Below, piece by piece: positions 1 to 36,430 of a stretch of DNA of 64,000 bases. Source of the stretch: Collybia mongolica. Its lineage: Eukaryota; Basidiomycota; Agaricomycetes; Agaricales; Clitocybaceae. How positions within the stretch are numbered: the first letter of the stretch is position 1; each line of letters begins with the position of its first letter. Below the pieces are notes generated by a model. The model ran no database searches. It was not told the origin of the DNA and saw only the letters and a program-made list of their open reading frames with translations. The DNA lies in NCBI GenBank assembly GCA_013420905.1, contig JAAXNY010000016.1, forward strand, positions 124,001-188,000, in the 5' to 3' direction. Made by a program: the position numbers and the translations under genes.

Positions 1-2760
1 AACCATTCAAGGGTGCTGGATTACACCATTTTCGACACAAGTAATCTGAAGTACGATGATTCTTATAATGATAAACATCAACAATTAATCTTGATGTATC
101 CAGCCAATCATTGTAAATGGGATTGGCAAGAGCAGTTCGAAGTACCAAGCAAGCTTTGTCAATGCAGATATAGGATGGTCGAGTTTCTTTCTCAGGATAA
201 ACTTTATTTAAAAAGTTGAGAATATTGGTTGGAGATTCAGAACGAGCAAATTTTGTCCAAGCTACCACAACACCACAAGGTTTGCATATAGTTTCAACAC
301 AGTAGAACCGAGCAGCAGTAAAGTAATTTGATTGTATAGTGGTATCATTATTATCTTCATCATGTGGCTGAATATAAGATCTTTGTTGTGGTTGCCAAGG
401 TTGATTCTCATTTGCAGCTCTTTGCAATACTCTGCGAGCACCAGAAAAGTTATCCCGAGTTTGTCTTTGAACATGTCTCTGCCAGTCTGGCTGATGTTCA
501 GCACAAGCCTGAGTGCCATGAATTTTTCCAGTATTACAGTTTTTAACACGACATTTATCACCATATTCAATGTCATGCTCATGGCAAAAGACACCTCCAC
601 GCATGTTGAACAGTAATTGTGAACAATTTTCAAAAGCACAATGTTGTACACCCATAACAATGCCATCCATGACAATCATATTACATATGCCAGGATTTCC
701 AAGAGGATTAACAAAGTTAACAAGTGGTAGATTTTGATTGGTAGCATTTTCCACTGCACGTTGTTGATCAAGAGCAGCATCAAGAGCAAATTCACCCATT
801 AGAACAGGAACAGGAGCATTTTCATCAACATTAACAACAGCAGCAGGATCATCTCCAGTTAGAAATTCAGCATGTTGTTTATATGGTTGAGTACATTCAG
901 TACAAACATGATCAGTAGCCAAAGCAATTTTTCCATCTGAGCATAGTTCTTGATATGCTTTTTGAGTTACTTCTTCAATAGAAAAATTATCATCCAGAAC
1001 CAAGGTTTGGTCAGATGCAGCGGCAATCATGCGAGTGGACTCTTCAACAAACACTTTCCAGACCTGCCAATGGCTCAGATTTAGTCCAGAATTGGCAAAG
1101 CTATTGTTCCAAAACTCCATATAAGCTGCAGTAGATCTATGAAAGCTATATATGGCATTTAGAACTGTTTTGCCAAAAATGCGATCAACCTAAAGTGCTT
1201 GACCAGCTTTAAGATATGGAGCTGACTCCAAATATAATCGTTTAGCTGAGTTGTTGTCAAGTGATCGTTCATGATCAGCATAGTATATAGTGTTGCATTT
1301 GAAACATTTCCCAGAAACAATATAGGCTTGATCATGAATAGTAGTGCCTTGATAAGTTTAACATGAGGAATATCAATGTTCCGAGTTTCACGTTTGAGTA
1401 CATGAAAATTGCAAGATTGTAATATACTACTAAAAGTTAAACAAAAATACAAACAAAAGTTTATCAAATTGTATCAACTTACTACTTCTTTGGTTTTACA
1501 GCTTTTGAACTTTGACCCTTCTTCCCCACTTTAGGTATGTTCTCTGCATCACGCCCTCCAGAACTTGGTTCCACAGCCTTAGACTTGCCCTTCTTTTTGC
1601 TAAACTGTTTCTGCACTTCTTCAACCTTTTCATCATCCTTGGACTTTTTCAAATCCTCCCCCTGCCCACGCAAAAACTTGTGCAGTGATCCAAGGTTATA
1701 ATCATCTGCAGAAAATCCCCAAGTTTCTTCATCAGAAAGACGGTCTTCAGTATTTTCCAACCAGTCTATCAGAGCTGGATATTTCTCAACAAACTTGAAT
1801 GGTTCATAATTTGAATAGAAATAAGAGGTTGAAGCAAAGATTCCTTTCAAATCAGCCAGTTTGGCAGCACCTTTCCAGGTGAGAGCATCCTTCATTTTCT
1901 TCATCATTGTATTAGCACGACAGAATTCTTTGTATTTTGCATATGCATAACGCAAAGTATGGTTGCCACGATCCAGATAGAAGTGTTCAATCTCCAACTG
2001 CATAATCATAGATTGCTGAACAGATGTGAAGCGAGCAACTATGTCAGACTCAGATGTGTTGTTTGATGTAGATAGTTCAGTTTTAGAAGGCACAGAAACA
2101 GTTGGAACAGAAGAAGTTGGAACTTGTGTAAAAGTTGAGGATTCAGATGATTCAGTCTAAAAGTGTTTTTATCAGAGATATACTTCAATAAATAAAAGTA
2201 GTAAAACTTACAGATAAATGCAAAACATATCCATGATCATCATACTTCCAATCCACCATATCATCATCTGAAAGTGCAGCACTGTAGCGACCCTTAATGT
2301 CCCAAGTTTCTTGATTTGTATATACATAAATCCGGTGATTGTCATTCTTAATAGGCGAGTAGAGATTGCCCAATTTGTAAAGAACAGGACCAAGGGAACT
2401 GTTAACTGGAATCTGGATGGTCATAGAAGACTTCATAGCCCTTGGATTACTACGCTCAGATTCCATAGACTTATACACACGAACAACACCATTGACATTG
2501 GGTTGTGCAACAGGTTGGTTATCTTCAAAATCAGCATGGTTCATAGCATTCCCCAATGCCTGACCACGAATGAAACCACCCACAGTATGAGATGCACCCT
2601 GCAGAGAATTCAAGTCTCCACCTACAGTGTAAGACGAACTCAAATCTGCACCATGAGGAGACATATCAATATCCTGGGGCTCAACACCACCTGGAGATTG
2701 CATTTCTATGTCTACACTATGCTTAGGTGGGGTATGTGGTTCTACATTCTCAGATGATGG

Positions 2761-2910
2761 GGGTAGAACATCCCCAGACACAGAAACTGGGGGCACAGCC
2801 TCCCCAAGACCAGAAACTGGGGGCACAGCCTCCCCAAGACCAGAAACTGGGGGTAGAGCCTCCCCAAGACCAGAAGATGGGGGTAGAGCCTCCCCAAGAC
2901 CAGAAGATAG
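2761..2910 (-). repeat. Five 30-bp coding repeats (SGLGEALPP type)
   Basis: Five consecutive 30-base units, each like GGGTAGAGCCTCCCCAAGAC plus CAGAAACTGG or CAGAAGATGG, lie in the fourth exon of the CxC5/CxC6 gene. On the minus strand each unit encodes ten residues of the type PPVSGLGEAV, so length change by whole units keeps the frame. The fifth unit (2761-2790) is the most diverged. Confidence 0.85.
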
Positions 2911-3140
2911 GGGCAAAGCCACAAAAGACTGATCTAAAGAAATAGAAACTAAACATATGATTTATAGAATCAGAGTAAGTTTAACAGGTGTTATAAAATA
3001 AAATCTTACTGTTAGTACCAGCAGGTGACGGGGCACGGGAGACGGCACAGGATGGGGCAGCCGACGAAATATGAGAGACACCATGGGAGGAAGGGCCGCC
3101 GGCAGAGGCAGCGCGGGAGGGGGCATGAGAGGCCGTGGCG

Positions 3141-29385: not shown

Positions 29386-29391
29386 GGCGAT

Positions 29392-29422
29392 TACCGTTGC
29401 CCTCCAGGACCATGGTCTATTT
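29392..29422 (+). repeat. Left terminal inverted repeat
   Basis: 31 bases identical to the reverse complement of 36290-36320; the 32nd base differs. It contains the internal palindrome GACCATGGTC. Confidence 0.95.
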
Positions 29423-30660
29423 CGTGTTTTTCAATTTGATTCCATTAATTGGGGTCCACGGCTTGGCGTGACGTGACCGTCTCTGAGTTATTTATTAAAT
29501 TACTGCTATGATATACGCACTTAGCTATGTAGCCTGCTCCACCTGGGCTAGGGTCGGTTTTTCACAATCCACTTACAACTCACATGTCGTCGACCATTCA
29601 TCACAAAATTCCCCGTGCAAATATTCAAAGCAGCCCCAGTAAAGGTATGTAACACATTGAACATTGAGTATCAGGTGTTGAATGTTGGGCCAGCAACAAA
29701 CAAAGAGACTGTTTGTTTTGCTGCAGATCCACCTAACCCACTGCCAAAGAAAAATGATGGCACATCATTCTGGATGCCATTCATCAGAACCAGTATGCTT
29801 TGCAGGTGAGGATACTTAATGAAAAAGTTTTCCACTTCTGACCTTTCATATTGCCAGCACACACAATGACAAGATCAGGTGAATATGGGCTTGCATGGAA
29901 AGTGATGTATCAGCTATTACTTGAATATCTTTCCACTGGTCCAGTAGCATTGGAGGAGAAGATAAGGCTTATCTTATCATACCTTTGTACAATCACATGA
30001 CCAAATCTGTCATGAATTTTGGGACTCTGGTCACATGAAAGGACAAGATTTGGATGCAGAATTGTGGGAAACTTGAGATCCTCATTACTGACTTGCTGTA
30101 TTCAACTTGAAGCCACTACACACAGGTTATGTGTCTCTTTTTTGACATTGCACTAAAGTGCATGCAAATTTGTGTCACCTCAGTTGAGTTTAGTACTTGT
30201 ACCATTGATAATGGGTCTTCAAATGATTGCACATTGCACATACTGTCTGCCCAGTAGTGAGTCTTTGGTTCACAAAAGACACCACCAGTATGCCTTCAAT
30301 ATATATCTAGCAAGTAAGTACACCAATTTTCTAATGAATACAATTGTTGTCCAAAAGACCATGGCTGTACCTGAGTTGCCCAAAGGCCCAAACTTCGTGT
30401 ATCATGAGTTTCTCAATTTGTGTCTAATCCAACCAGGCAAGAGCATGATCATTGTGTAGTCTCAGTCTTCCCTACCCTTGCTTCAAGTTCTGCACCCAGG
30501 ATCCTTCTTAACTGGCTTACTTAATGACAAATTGGCCTGGAAACTCACTATGTTACAATCAACCTGCAATCAACCCCCCAGGACTATGGTCTGCTAGCGC
30601 ACTTCTTTCTGGCCTATTGGGGCTATACTGCACCATGTTACACCACCATTCTTTCCTAGA

Positions 30661-32693
30661 ATGCCAACCTGCCCCAACTGTAGTGTTGCATTCCCACTGA
30701 TGGAGTCTAGTGACAGTGTCTGTAAGAAGTGTGTGATGCTTGATGGGAAGTCTGCAGTCAAGAAAGTTGTGATCAAAGTAAGTGAAAACATGCTTCTTTA
30801 TCATCTGTAGTCATAGAAGTGACCTATTATTTTTCAAGGCAAAAGGACAATGTAAGGGTTGTTCTCTTGTGTACACAAACCTTAAGGATCTGCTCTGCAA
30901 CAGATGCTGTACTTTTTTGGGTAGGCACTTAATTGATGCATATATATATATATATATATTGATGAGCTAATGTCTATTTTCTGTTATAGTTGACTCTGAT
31001 GCAGTCCCTTCAAGCATAGTACAACTCAAAGGTGCCATAACTCAGCTAGCCAAGTTCCAAAAAAGTGATTTTTCCACTGAAATTCTTTGCACAACCAATA
31101 CATAGGTGCGAGGTCTGTTTTAATCCTAAATGTGTGATCAGCTCACTATCTATTTTTAGGCAAAATGTTGATATCTTTGCTCATGAAAGTGCAACCAAAG
31201 CCAAGCATCTGCCTAAACAAAGCATTCAAAACAGAACAGTTGGAGACCTCCTCAAGCAATTTTGGGAGTTGGAATACATATCTGCATCAGCTGCAGCCAC
31301 TAAATTTATGGAGATCCGGCTGGTATGTGAAGAGGCCAAGCTGGTGAGTTGAGAACTGACTGCATCACATTTTACCACCAATTTACACTATTCCAAGTAT
31401 CCTAGTACATCAGGAATGATAACTGGGGATATCTGTAACAGTATTTTTTTGTCTGTTCCTGCTCCTTCATCAAAACAGAAACTGCTGAGTGTAACACCAA
31501 ATCCACAGGATTCAGGAGTTTGAAACCTGAGAAAAAGTGCATGGCCACCCAATATTGCTGCTCACCCAAAGTTTGCTTGAGATTCCAAGATGGTAGCTTG
31601 TTCTTTTACATAGCAGATTGCTAAACTTGATGGGCCTATCGTCACATTTAAAGCTTACACTGTTATTGAGACAATCCTCATTGCAGAAGACTGGTTGGAG
31701 GGTTGGGGAATGTCACAACAAAAAGAGTTCTTTGGTGATACTGGCTATATTGGATGTGGATCTGCAAAGCATGTAATTTATGTAAGTCCCATTGTGCTGA
31801 GGCCAGTCTTCTAATCAGACTTTCATGTAGGCACAATTTGGTGGCAAAGAATATGCACTTGGTCAAACTTTCCAAGGGGATATGTCCAATAATGATAACA
31901 CTGCAATGTTAAAGGCTGAGTTTGAAAACCTTGAGCAAGGTGAAGCATTCCACAGAAATTTTGAAGAACTTGCTCTTGAATATAGTACCTCCCTTCCATG
32001 TCTCTTTATCCCTTCCCACCTATAAGATTAATGATTATTGATGCATCACTGGCAGGATTCTGCTTCAATCTAGGTGGTACCATTCTTGGCAGATTTGAAA
32101 ATGCCAATGCTGGAAGTCTTTTGGACCTGGATTCCCTGCTGTGTCATCTCACTCATTTCAATTTCATTGCTACTTGTTTGTTGCTATGTAGTCAGATTGA
32201 TGCACTAGTCCAGAAATTTACAGGAAACCATGATGAGGGTGGGGCCCCTGGAATAGGCGACTATCTTACTGTCATGTTACATGCCTTTACTCATTATGTT
32301 GGGGTGTTTTCTCATGGGAACCTCTTACTTTGTGATCTACAAGGTGTGAGAAGGAACCTTACCTATATGTAATATATCTTAGTATATTGTTTAGGCATGC
32401 ATGGTAAATCTGGAACAATGTGTTTGATTGATCTGCAGTCCCACTTGTGAGTCGTTTTCATAAATCCAGTTACCAGGGGTATTACTCATGTTTAATTTAG
32501 CTCTGAACCTCATTCCATGCAGTGCCAGTATTGGGATTGTGGGCCCAAGGCAATCCAGACTTTTCTGGACCATCACAGCAAATCATGTCAAAAAAATTCT
32601 GTATGCACTGCACTTTCCCTGGAAACAGTAGAGTTTCTTGACAACAATGATTTGGAACCCAAATCCCTTTCTGCCAAAAGCAAGTACAAGTGA
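30661..32693 (+). CDS. Alpha-type (MHCK/eEF2K-like) protein kinase carried by the transposon
   Basis: Alpha-kinases are serine/threonine kinases unrelated in sequence to ordinary kinases. The likely start MPTCPNCSVAFPL opens a first zinc finger (CPNC and CKKC); the next exon (30839-30920) adds a second one (CKGC and CNRC). The kinase core follows in separate exons: YAQFGGKEYALGQ, then NLGGTILGRFENA, ALVQKFTGNHDEGG, the HAFTHY-to-LLLCDLQG helix and motif, GMHGKSGTMCLIDLQSH, and GPKAIQTFLDHH. The tail ends KSKYK with TGA at 32691-32693. Cys and His residues in the last exons fit the structural zinc module of the family. One junction (about 31105-31160) does not splice cleanly in my reading, so an intact product is likely but unproven. 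Exons 5' of 30661, back to an ATG at 29584, could also belong. It lies wholly inside the transposon and points towards the transposase gene. Confidence 0.8.
30940..30959. repeat. (AT)n microsatellite in a kinase-gene intron
   Basis: About ten AT dinucleotides directly after an intron donor at 30921. A shorter (AC)7 run lies at 33363-33376. Confidence 0.8.
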
Positions 32694-34546
32694 AATACAG
32701 GTTTGGCTGCCAATGAAGGGGCCAATGCAAACAGGTGTGGGATTTCCCAGGTACCTATTTTTACCAGGCTAAATTTGATGCAATATTTCATGTAGGGTGG
32801 GACAACTCAATGATGGGGTAGTGCAGATACAATTTGATTAGATGAACCCATCCCTGTTTGGGTATCACTGTAACTGATGTAAATCAGGATACCTATGCCC
32901 CAAAAGCCATGTGCTTCCACCCTTCCCAGAGCCTTTGGGCTGTTAAATGAATGGAAATCTACCTCTGTAAATCAATTGTATGAGCCTTTGAGAGGTTTTG
33001 TGATACAGAAGTTATACCCAATGATGTATCCAGCTCACCAGCCACATGCCTGAGCCATGGGTGGCCCATGACTCTCACATAGATGTGGGATGCCAGTGAG
33101 AGCCCAGAGCATGTGCTGGATGACTCTATATTGCCTTATCAGTTGAATTGGGTAATGCAGCAGAATGTCAGGTGGATAAATTTTCATGTGCAAGATATAA
33201 GTATGGGACTAGGCAAATACTAAGGGCATCATTGTAGTGAACATAACCCACACATTGTCCATGGTAAGGTTAACTATATTCAGTGAGTCATACACAGCAT
33301 GGGCATGTTGAAAGAGGGCTCCTGGGCTATAAGCATGCTGATGCTATGAAATGTAATCTCTTACACACACACACACCAAATCTAACAATCAACACACAAA
33401 CAGTAGGAATCGCCTGATTTGAGTTCAGGTTTGAGTGCATGAAAGCACTAAGTTTTTAATAGTGCTAGTCAAGGCCTTTCTCACTGACCTCTTGACAGGT
33501 TTGATTTGGACAAAGTCTTAACACTTGTGTTAAGACCTTAGGTATATTTTTATAATATCTTTCAATCCAATAGACTGAGTACCAAGTGTACATTCAATTA
33601 TTAATGATCCCAAATGGATCAATAAGTCTAAGTGACTTTTAAAACAAAAGTGCCAAGTGCACCAAAGGCCAAGTGCCTAATAATTCCAATGGACAATATG
33701 AGTACTAAGTTCCAAATGAACTGAACTCTTCAATTCTGTGATCTCCTTAGCCAAATGCTTCAAGACAATTCTAATCAAGACAATTGAAGCAATCTGATCC
33801 TTAATTTGTGTGTGCAATAGTGTTTCAACAAATATGATTTGTACATATATCCTATAATAACACAAAGTGGGGGCAAGATTCCTGACCTCTGCACTACCTA
33901 TCTACAGTCTATTTATAGTGTACAAAATTAATATTATAAAGAATCATAATTTTATGCAGAACAAGGCCCTTCTGCACCAAGGGCTTGTGTTTTAATGCTG
34001 ACTCGTCCTCTACAACTTGGTGCACATGCCATACATGCTAATTATGTCATTACTTATTACTTGGCCAATATCAAGAGAGCTGGCTAAACTCTTATCAACA
34101 CTCGGCAGCACGCTTAGTTATTTTTAAAATAGTGTGGTACTGTCTTTTACTTCTCCTGATCATTCCAGTTGTTATTTACAGTGTCCCATCTTTCCAGTAG
34201 TTAACACCAAGCGCCCCTGATTAGACTCTGGCCTCAGGTTGTGTGAGTCCTGAATTTACAATTACTTCTCCTATTAATGATAATCCCCAGACTAATGATA
34301 TCATACTACAATGGTTACTTATGGTTTAAGATACCGAGGTTGTAACCAGGCATGGTGAATAGAACTAATAATAGTCTGTACTCATAGTCCTCTGTACTGA
34401 TAGTGTATTCATCATTAGACTAGTTCACTCTGATTTGCCATCTCAGAGCTTGACTCTAATCCTCTATTACTGTTTACTTGGTTATTAGAAATAATACTAA
34501 TAGCCTTACTTGTTGACTTTACAAGTGCAAACAATTTTGGGCCCTA
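32694..34546. other. Transposon interior between kinase and transposase genes
   Basis: AT-rich sequence with an (AC)7 run at 33363. I find no exon chain on either strand. It must hold the 3' ends of both convergent genes. Confidence 0.4.
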
Positions 34547-35505
34547 TCAACATGATGCAAATTCTGGAGTGGTAAATGCAATAACCTCCAGGCCACCAAG
34601 CTCTTCCTTCATATGATGGATTACACTCATATTGTTGATTGGTAAAAGGCAGTTCTTTCCTCCCCACTCTTCCAGCTAAAGGCATGATTGTGAGACATAT
34701 GTACCTGAGGGGCCTGGCTTCTCTTTATCCTTCCACATCTTACATTCATTGCAAAAATCTATGAATGTGTTGAGTTCTTGCTGGAGGAGCTTAGGCCACA
34801 GCCATTGGCATAATTCACTAAATAATGATCATATGTATTAGTTATAACCTGAAGCAGTGTGGACTCACTATTGATCTGGGTTGTTTGAATTGTAGACACC
34901 ATCTTCAATACCCTTGTTGAAGCATAACACTGCACTATCCCCAAGATCAAGGCATAGGCGGAGCCAAGATTGTTCAATAGAAATGTTGTGAACAGATTGA
35001 AGGTAGACATGTGGGGGTAAGTCAACAATGTCAATATCATTGCGAAATGTGAGCCTAAAACAGTTCTTAGCTTCATGAAACACTGAAGCAAAAAATCATT
35101 AACTGAAGCGCTGTACTGATGCCAAACAGTTGGGTAGTCTCTGAACTGCAATCCATTGTTGATTGTAGGGGTATGCCTAAGAAGGTGTTTTAGTGCTTCT
35201 ACAAAAGCATTGGAGATGGAAAACTACCTCCAAACTCTTTGACAAGACATAGGAACAGATATGTAATGACAACTCCCATTCTGTTACTCAGGACTACCCA
35301 AGCATGGAGCCACTGTCCCATTGCATCATCTACCATTGCCCAGATAAGAAAACCAATACTGTATAGTTTATCATGCCCATTGCTGGACCATCGCTGATGT
35401 ATCCCAAGTGGATACTTCTTGACACAAAATATATGCTTAGATGTTGGATCACACATGGCAAATGCATCACCATCATGGGTATGCATAACATCAGAAACAA
35501 AATTT
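34547..35505 (-). pseudogene. Integrase-type DDE transposase of the element, degenerate
   Basis: Minus-strand exons give, in order, DVMHTHDGDAFAM, then HQRWSSNGHDKLYSIGF with a candidate first Asp, VDDAMGQWLHAWVV, SNRMGVVITYLFLCLV and, across an intron of 51 bases (35177-35227), GGIPLQSTMDCSSETTQLFG with the second Asp. HVYLQSVHNISIEQSWLRL follows with a candidate Glu, then FNKGIEDGVYNSNNPDQY. A second 51-base intron (34818-34868) leads to ELCQWLWPKLLQQELNTFID and KPGPSG, and EEWGGKNCLLP ends near TGA at 34547-34549. About 55 residues separate the two Asp. The arrangement matches integrase-core proteins common in agaricomycete genomes, recalled from memory. The frame breaks at about 35080-35105 and around 34690-34715, and further N-terminal exons are not found. 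So this copy is probably inactive and the element would need a transposase in trans. Confidence 0.65.
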
Positions 35506-36289
35506 CTAGAACACTGTGTCTAATTAAAGTAGGAATGAACAGGAAAAAAAAATTACCATGGAAGGTGAACCCCCCAGTGATAGATATGCAACCTTGCTCT
35601 GTATAGTTCTTACCCCTGATTACTAACAAACCTCATTGCAATTCCATGATCAGCTTGCAATGATTTTGAGATCCTTGTGTTATTTATAAGCTTTTCATGG
35701 TGATATTTTTTAGTGCACTGTGTAGTGTCAGGTTGTCTGCATCAGCTATACAAGGATCAGCAACTGGAACCCACAAAAGAAATCTGGATCACATATGCCT
35801 CCATGTTGATTCTTCCCTGTGGGATTATGATTATGGGATGAGCTTGCCATAGGTGGTGGGGTTGAAAAATGGTGATAATATGCTCCACAGTGCAGCCACT
35901 AGTACTTGAAAAACACATGTATCACTGTACAGCATCAGACAAATGCACATTGAATCAGGGTGTCATCTGCAGTTAACACCTTTCAAGTGCCAGCCAAGAT
36001 TCACCAGAATCACTACTTTGGAATTGAATCGACTAAAAAAAAAACTACCTCCCCCCACTGTGGTTCATCTGGCTGTGCACAATCCATGTGACTACATCTA
36101 AAGAACCGTTCGGGCATTCCCAAACATGTACACCAATTCTGCACCTGTCATCTCCGGGAACAATGATAATGTACACACTTATTAATCCCTATAAAGATAA
36201 GGGTAAACTTAGTTGCTAATTGTCATGTCAGGTTGTCACAGAGTGCCAGGACCCCAGCTAACACCTATGATTTATAATTGTTTTTATTA
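35506..36289. other. Right part of the transposon, probable 5' region of the transposase gene
   Basis: Upstream exons of the minus-strand transposase should lie here but I could not join any with confidence. Sequence next to the right TIR is AT-rich. Confidence 0.35.
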
Positions 36290-36320
36290 AAATAGACCAT
36301 GGTCCTGGAGGGCAACGGTA
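36290..36320 (-). repeat. Right terminal inverted repeat
   Basis: 31 bases, perfect reverse complement of the left TIR, followed at once by GGCGAT (36321-36326), which repeats the six bases before the left TIR. Confidence 0.95.
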
Positions 36321-36430
36321 GGCGATGATAAACCGCATCACTAATTTGGACTAGCGCAACAGGGTGCGACTCGGGACAGTTTCAAATTTTTACCCTTCAA
36401 AATTACGACAGTCCGGGAACATACATTTGA

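Follow-up and report, generated by a model that had tools for sequence, protein, structure and literature searches.

Complete families of the IS3EU/GingerRoot superfamily of DNA transposons are described as having TA..TA ends and usually 6-bp target-site duplications (TSDs) (Kojima 2023, PMC10045372). Among rust fungi, IS3EU families encode a transposase and an alpha-kinase in opposite orientation, and in the TET+ IS3EU families a TET/JBP gene lies between these two genes and the termini read TAYGG..CCRTA (Kojima 2025, PMC12730594). Here we describe a similar element, hereafter W, from Collybia mongolica. It lies on contig C16 (other C-numbers denote contigs of the same 46-Mb genome), within a stretch of 64,000 nucleotides (JAAXNY010000016.1, positions 124,001 to 188,000) that we call the window and whose numbering is used for all features of W. 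Given its TA..TA ends, 6-bp TSD and opposed kinase gene, the element can be assigned to the IS3EU type with high confidence, and it is almost equally probable that W is a decayed IS3EU-type DNA transposon in which the kinase gene is a partner of the transposase gene.

Like the rust IS3EU families as characterised in PMC12730594, W has a 6-bp TSD, terminal inverted repeats (TIRs) longer than 30 bp, TA..TA ends and opposed transposase and alpha-kinase genes. Unlike them, it resides in a mushroom-type host, starts with TACCG rather than TAYGG and contains no TET/JBP match in a profile search of the genome, whose single Tet_JBP match (C5:4428003-4428410) lies outside the five two-gene elements. 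One sister lineage, represented by the element C5_680, also departs from the rust description in having both genes on one strand (PMC12730594). The TA..TA termini, 6-bp TSD and integrase-like transposase are shared with the IS3EU/GingerRoot superfamily, in whose description the word kinase is absent from the main text (PMC10045372). Styx of Zymoseptoria is an IS3EU-related element with a 36-bp TIR, a 6-bp TSD and extra coding sequences, but its host and genes differ, and the sole kinase mentioned in the available text of its description is a duplicated neighbouring gene (PMC10853768). A preliminary description of the window knew of no element that pairs an alpha-kinase with a transposase; since the rust families already do so (PMC12730594), the pairing itself is not new. 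A literature search, with Repbase and the supplements of PMC12730594 outside its scope, found no description of a TET-less kinase-bearing mushroom IS3EU element, of a same-strand lineage or of co-inheritance of the two genes. What our analysis adds is an indication that mushroom elements of the IS3EU type carry the kinase as a standing part of their make-up.

The ends of W are sharply defined. The TSD GGCGAT is found at 29386..29391 and 36321..36326, and it encloses 31-bp TIRs at 29392..29422 (plus strand, beginning TACCGTTGCC) and 36290..36320 (minus strand), which were identified by arm comparison and genome search, are complementary at 31 of 31 positions and give the termini TACCG..CGGTA. 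With up to three mismatches, the 31-bp TIR occurs at nine places in the genome versus none for the reversed control, and among the five pairs of exact inverted arms in the window (arms of at least 14 bases, 1.2-15 kb apart) only that of W is accompanied by a matching 4-9-bp duplication; these ends are therefore not a product of chance. Thus, the precise TIR transposon of the preliminary description stands. Its length of 6,929 bp is correct as a span but includes a nested repeat of 1,247 bp, without which W measures 5,682 bp, near the 5,751 bp of its relative C6.

Inside W, the presence of an alpha-kinase gene on the plus strand and a convergent integrase-type transposase gene on the minus strand was confirmed by a PF02816 match and by tblastn with mushroom relatives, respectively. 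The kinase gene (30660..32690, limits set by eye from PF02816 and a weak tblastn match) is decayed and consists of several exon-like pieces, with two N-terminal cysteine clusters followed by the kinase domain. The PF02816 match obtained by profile search lies at 32193..32363 on the plus strand, contains a DLQG motif and scores 30.9 bits (32.6 bits for the open reading frame); both W and C6 exceed the cut-off of this family. In the W kinase, DLQ stands in place of DPQ, and the cysteine motif near the C-terminus is altered. The zinc fingers proposed earlier for this protein are supported by CxxC pairs seen by eye and by cysteine clusters that recur in a majority consensus built from 17 related kinases, although the Pfam zinc-ribbon matches are all sub-threshold.

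The transposase gene of W is degraded. Its relatives P0084 and P0086 align by tblastn on the minus strand, in pieces between 35841 and 34553 and then at 33310-33212, which corresponds to the gene body (34553..35841) and to a severed 3' end (33212..33305). Between them lies a nested high-copy repeat of 1,247 bp (33306..34552) with TGTTGA..TCAACA ends and at least 50 matches in the genome, many of them full length at 85-92% identity; it is perhaps a solo long terminal repeat. A CATG direct repeat is visible by eye at its borders. The aligned stretch of the transposase contains at least one in-frame stop, and its open reading frames at 35199-35519, 34759-35223 and 34676-34828, each taken alone, match no Pfam transposase family. 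The transposase gene of the preliminary description is thus to be read as a gene broken by a separate repeat, and W, with its transposase gene interrupted in this way and carrying a stop, is a dead copy.

Four further elements of the same genome contain both genes between recognizable ends. C5_680 (C5:680016-686522) has a 28-bp perfect TIR with the termini TACCG..CGGTA and the TSD CCGGTA; C6 (C6:727634-733384; 5,751 bp) and C5_170 (C5:170067-181736) each have a 116-bp perfect TIR with the termini TACGG..CCGTA and are flanked by ATCTGG and GACTGG, respectively; and C5_3265 (C5:3265793-3271984) has an imperfect TIR with a 31-bp perfect run, flanked by ACAATG/ACAACG (five of six positions identical). 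A locus at C4:1259-1263 also has both genes. C6 and C5_170 differ by six mismatches in 5,631 aligned bases (99.9% identical), and this near-identity implies that a kinase-bearing element moved recently.

The association of the two genes was assessed over the whole genome, with match counts that are lower bounds. The transposase core of W matches 12 places, W included, and eight of these have a kinase. A PF02816 profile search yielded 13 alpha-kinase places, of which six have a transposase place no more than 3 kb away. The kinase domains of element kinases, used as two queries, gave 15 and 18 rows, which resolve into eight loci and a weak C-terminal fragment (C4:4874523); a transposase place was found at this distance from every one of the eight loci, C13:2479180 and C4:4877607 being additional to the six from Pfam. 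Depending on the search, six of 13 (Pfam) or eight of 15 (all) alpha-kinase places are thus paired with a transposase, which bears out the earlier suggestion that part of the alpha-kinase set of this genome spread by transposition.

The same pairing was found in annotated genomes. The exon-joined C6 transposase has 237 database relatives; among the 120 listed, the named proteins, judged by genus, presumably all come from Agaricomycetes. Of the 25 database relatives of the exon-joined C6 kinase, ten can be linked to a listed transposase. Eight are linked by neighbouring locus tags: Lyophyllum shimeji 0409960/0409970, Termitomyces T32 005461/005462, Hypsizygus 007391/007390, Tricholomella 002423/002422, Arthromyces 003660/003661, Paramarasmius 018299/018300, Marasmius crinis-equi 014215/014216 and Laccaria bicolor 303846/303845. 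The other two each lie with a transposase on a short contig, as judged by equal size (Phlegmacium, 35,425; Pluteus, 6,134). The exon-joined C5_680 kinase matched 13 database proteins, two of which, predicted fusion proteins from Arthromyces (942 amino acids) and Tricholoma matsutake (911 amino acids), combine transposase and then kinase in the order and strand of C5_680.

The two genes also agree in their patterns of divergence. For 15 kinase-transposase pairs, of which 11 come from the database (with that of Mycena among them) and four are elements of this genome, the two distance matrices are correlated with Mantel r = 0.71, a value reached by none of 10,000 permutations, although the agreement is partly expected from common host history. 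The elements of this genome provide a check on that effect: both gene trees group W with C5_680 and C6 with C5_3265, and the split of W and C5_680 from the rest has support of 100/100 in both; most other forks are poorly supported, with four of 12 inner branches starred in the transposase tree and two of 12 in the kinase tree. The transposases of W or C5_680 are only 41-45% identical to that of C6. On these alignments and trees, the kinase and the transposase have diverged together, and we consider it probable, slightly less firmly than the IS3EU assignment, that the kinase is a standing partner of the transposase and not captured cargo.

Besides shared host history, several observations weigh against this interpretation or against the IS3EU assignment. 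Four of the 12 transposase places (C1:1083141, C1:7969198, C4:4909267 and C15:357940) have no kinase match in the PF02816 search or with the element-kinase queries; at the first of them, a remnant of a kinase N-terminus (132 residues) lies alongside, within 6,001 bp. Fourteen of the 25 database kinases have no partner among the 120 of 237 transposases listed, the Mycena floridula link consists of an equal contig size of 3.49 Mb only, and in the kinase tree the C5_680 row has less than half of its columns filled and one branch is very long. The termini of W (TACCG..CGGTA) differ from the rust TAYGG..CCRTA, which C6 fits, and in C5_680, C4:1259/1262 and C4:4877/4880 kinase and transposase share one strand, unlike the published description. 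An alignment of the transposase against PDB gave nothing significant (best E 0.93), and a Foldseek search with its model (mean predicted local distance difference test score, pLDDT, 79.2; helical N-terminal domains and a mixed core) likewise gave a best E of 1.6, with TnsB and HIV-1 integrase among the weak matches. Finally, the assignment to IS3EU draws on structural features, on the presence of a kinase and on the published description rather than on Repbase sequences.

The explanation that comes next to a standing partnership is that one transposon family captured a host kinase as cargo. It would account for two short copies of the W family that lack the kinase, one on C4 (1,352 bp, TSD GCCGAT) and one on C10, termed C10a (1,509 bp, TSD GATGCT), both with the TIR of W at one or two mismatches per arm. 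The preliminary description held that TIR-bounded copies never containing the kinase would speak against a kinase-bearing element; these two are in part such copies, being kinase-less, but the transposase is missing from them too. They retain the ends of W (left, 29392..29652, and right, 36159..36320; 86% and 88% identical to the C4 copy) and two segments flanking the kinase region, one ahead of the kinase (30062..30305, 75%) and one intergenic (32875..33065, 71%), and look like internally deleted copies. Among the remaining TIR matches, the larger places C20, C10b (C10:3234885) and C5:1102k have one damaged end, no TSD and a filling of other sequence, and at C8 only a portion of the left end is matched, no right end being found. 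Also in favour of a host origin are seven other PF02816 places, matched by neither of the element-kinase queries and without a neighbouring transposase match. However, the pairing recurs in families of this genome whose transposases are 41-45% identical and in ten annotated species, the deep split is the same in both gene trees, and the element-kinase queries found no free-standing relative except the weak C4:4874523 fragment, 3 kb from a paired kinase. The database pairs, the distance agreement and the trees rule against a one-off capture, and we regard captured cargo as improbable. The preliminary idea that alpha-kinases multiplied through transposition of kinase cargo is therefore retained as to transposition and revised as to cargo, the kinase being better described as a long-term partner gene.

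Two side observations concern inverted repeats. A PF02816 place without a nearby transposase, C12:546116, is enclosed by one whose arms are several hundred bases long (C12:545426-554224). Repeats of about 1.6 kb with long inverted arms starting TACAGTGGCTCAAAAAACTGCCCC are found at C12:540281-541892 and C5:3263508-3265109.

An affiliation with another DDE superfamily (Ginger, Dada or KDZ) is about as improbable as cargo capture, if anything slightly more so. In its favour, the transposase is integrase-like: the exon-joined C6 transposase matches the Pfam family rva_4 'Integrase core domain' at 32.6 bits (cut-off 26). The TSDs of Dada elements, whose insertions target small-RNA genes, are 6-7 bp long and would also be compatible. 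TSDs are 4 bp in Ginger1 and 4-5 bp in Ginger2 (PMC10045372) and 8 bp in Zisupton (PMC12730594), which disagrees with the 6-bp TSDs found in W, C4, C10a, C5_680, C6 and C5_170 (five of six positions in C5_3265). The combination of such TSDs with TA..TA termini, present in W, C5_680, C6 and C5_170, is instead that of complete IS3EU families (PMC10045372). The only rva_4 matches in a search of the genome form one three-piece locus, C8:3084380-3085013, with another type of integrase; this locus was considered as the source of the W transposase and rejected, the integrase being different by eye.

That the kinase gene is a mobile unit of its own, inserted into the transposon, is very improbable: its orientation is opposite in W and the sister C5_680 and the alignments of the short copies flank the kinase region on either side, but the gene keeps one slot in W, C5_680, C6 and C5_3265, between the 3' end of the transposase gene and the far TIR, an in-place inversion suffices, no kinase-only insertion with its own ends and TSD was seen, and TIR scans of these four elements, which required exact arms of 11-14 bases and for C5_3265 covered the best 15 pairs, gave no inner TIR that encloses the kinase and is flanked by a duplication. 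An inversion inside the element is likely, because the kinase is convergent with the transposase in W (as in C6 and C5_3265) and codirectional in C5_680 although both genes group these two elements.

The kinase has features of the alpha-kinase family. The motifs GYxxKGxxK, DLQ, DPQAHS and HKC...C, whose roles we assume to be those of alpha-kinase motifs in general, are wide but not universal among the 25 database kinases and three copies from this genome; several of the 25 database models are incomplete or missing one motif. Invariant columns number 24 in an alignment of 17 kinases and ten in 27 kinases that include the C5_680 type. At the sequence level, the kinase profile matches TRPM7/ChaK, myosin heavy chain kinase A, ALPK1 and eEF2 kinase; the element kinase differs from these four in its two N-terminal cysteine clusters and in being encoded next to a transposase. 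A structural model of the relative P0122 (mean pLDDT 79.9, predicted template modelling score 0.49) matches the kinase of TRPM7 (1ia9, E 6e-9) and ALPK1 (E 1.6e-7), with weaker matches to ubiquitin-like folds, e.g., the C-terminal domain of RING1B (E 0.012). The ubiquitin-like match may correspond to residues 130-254 of P0122, although the output gives no range, and is a lead only.

W is strongly depleted in CpG, with an observed/expected ratio of 0.12 versus 0.90 in the rest of the window; the ratio is 0.78 in C6, 0.54 in C5_680, 0.40 in C5_3265 and 0.24 and 0.17 in the short copies. Depletion is weaker at the ends than in the interior, both in W and in its short relatives. The interior sites of four short-type copies comprise seven with residual CG, five with TG and CA mixed from copy to copy and 159 uniform TG or CA. 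Since a uniform site may never have been a CG, these counts demonstrate no more than that CpG loss after the dispersal of these copies was small, and the W family would thus have been CpG-poor inside before it dispersed. This pattern fits old, putatively methylated copies that may have been mobilised in trans. In another CpG-poor stretch (1-3000), an open frame at 2-1189 on the minus strand of the window encodes a CxC6 domain (PF18721, KDZ-transposase-associated; 57.4 bits) and probably belongs to a further DNA transposon that lies at the edge of the window.

As a working model, the transposase would bind the TIRs, excise the element and insert it through a 6-bp staggered joint, and the kinase would be expressed from the element. 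W, broken by the nested repeat and the stop, would move only with a transposase supplied by another copy. The kinase might phosphorylate either the transposase or proteins of the host that act in chromatin, silencing or repair, and so promote movement or escape from silencing; any particular role of this kind is tentative at best. Still less likely, in our estimation, is the broader picture of an ancient mushroom transposon clade with an obligate protein combining zinc clusters, a ubiquitin-like fold and an alpha-kinase, which would target chromatin, silencing or DNA-repair proteins of the host on behalf of the element, as the protein-phosphorylation counterpart of the rust TET/JBP.

The preliminary description took alpha-kinases to be multiplied in Agaricomycetes. 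A literature search by title gave nothing to confirm this, and the passage that was found calls the family highly expanded in rusts (PMC4469406). The present analysis indicates that a conserved kinase gene is part of the standard equipment of a group of mushroom transposons. Accordingly, alpha-kinase numbers in such genomes reflect in part transposons and not signalling genes of the host, as at six of the 13 Pfam places of this genome, and the question is raised why a transposon retains a protein kinase over deep time.

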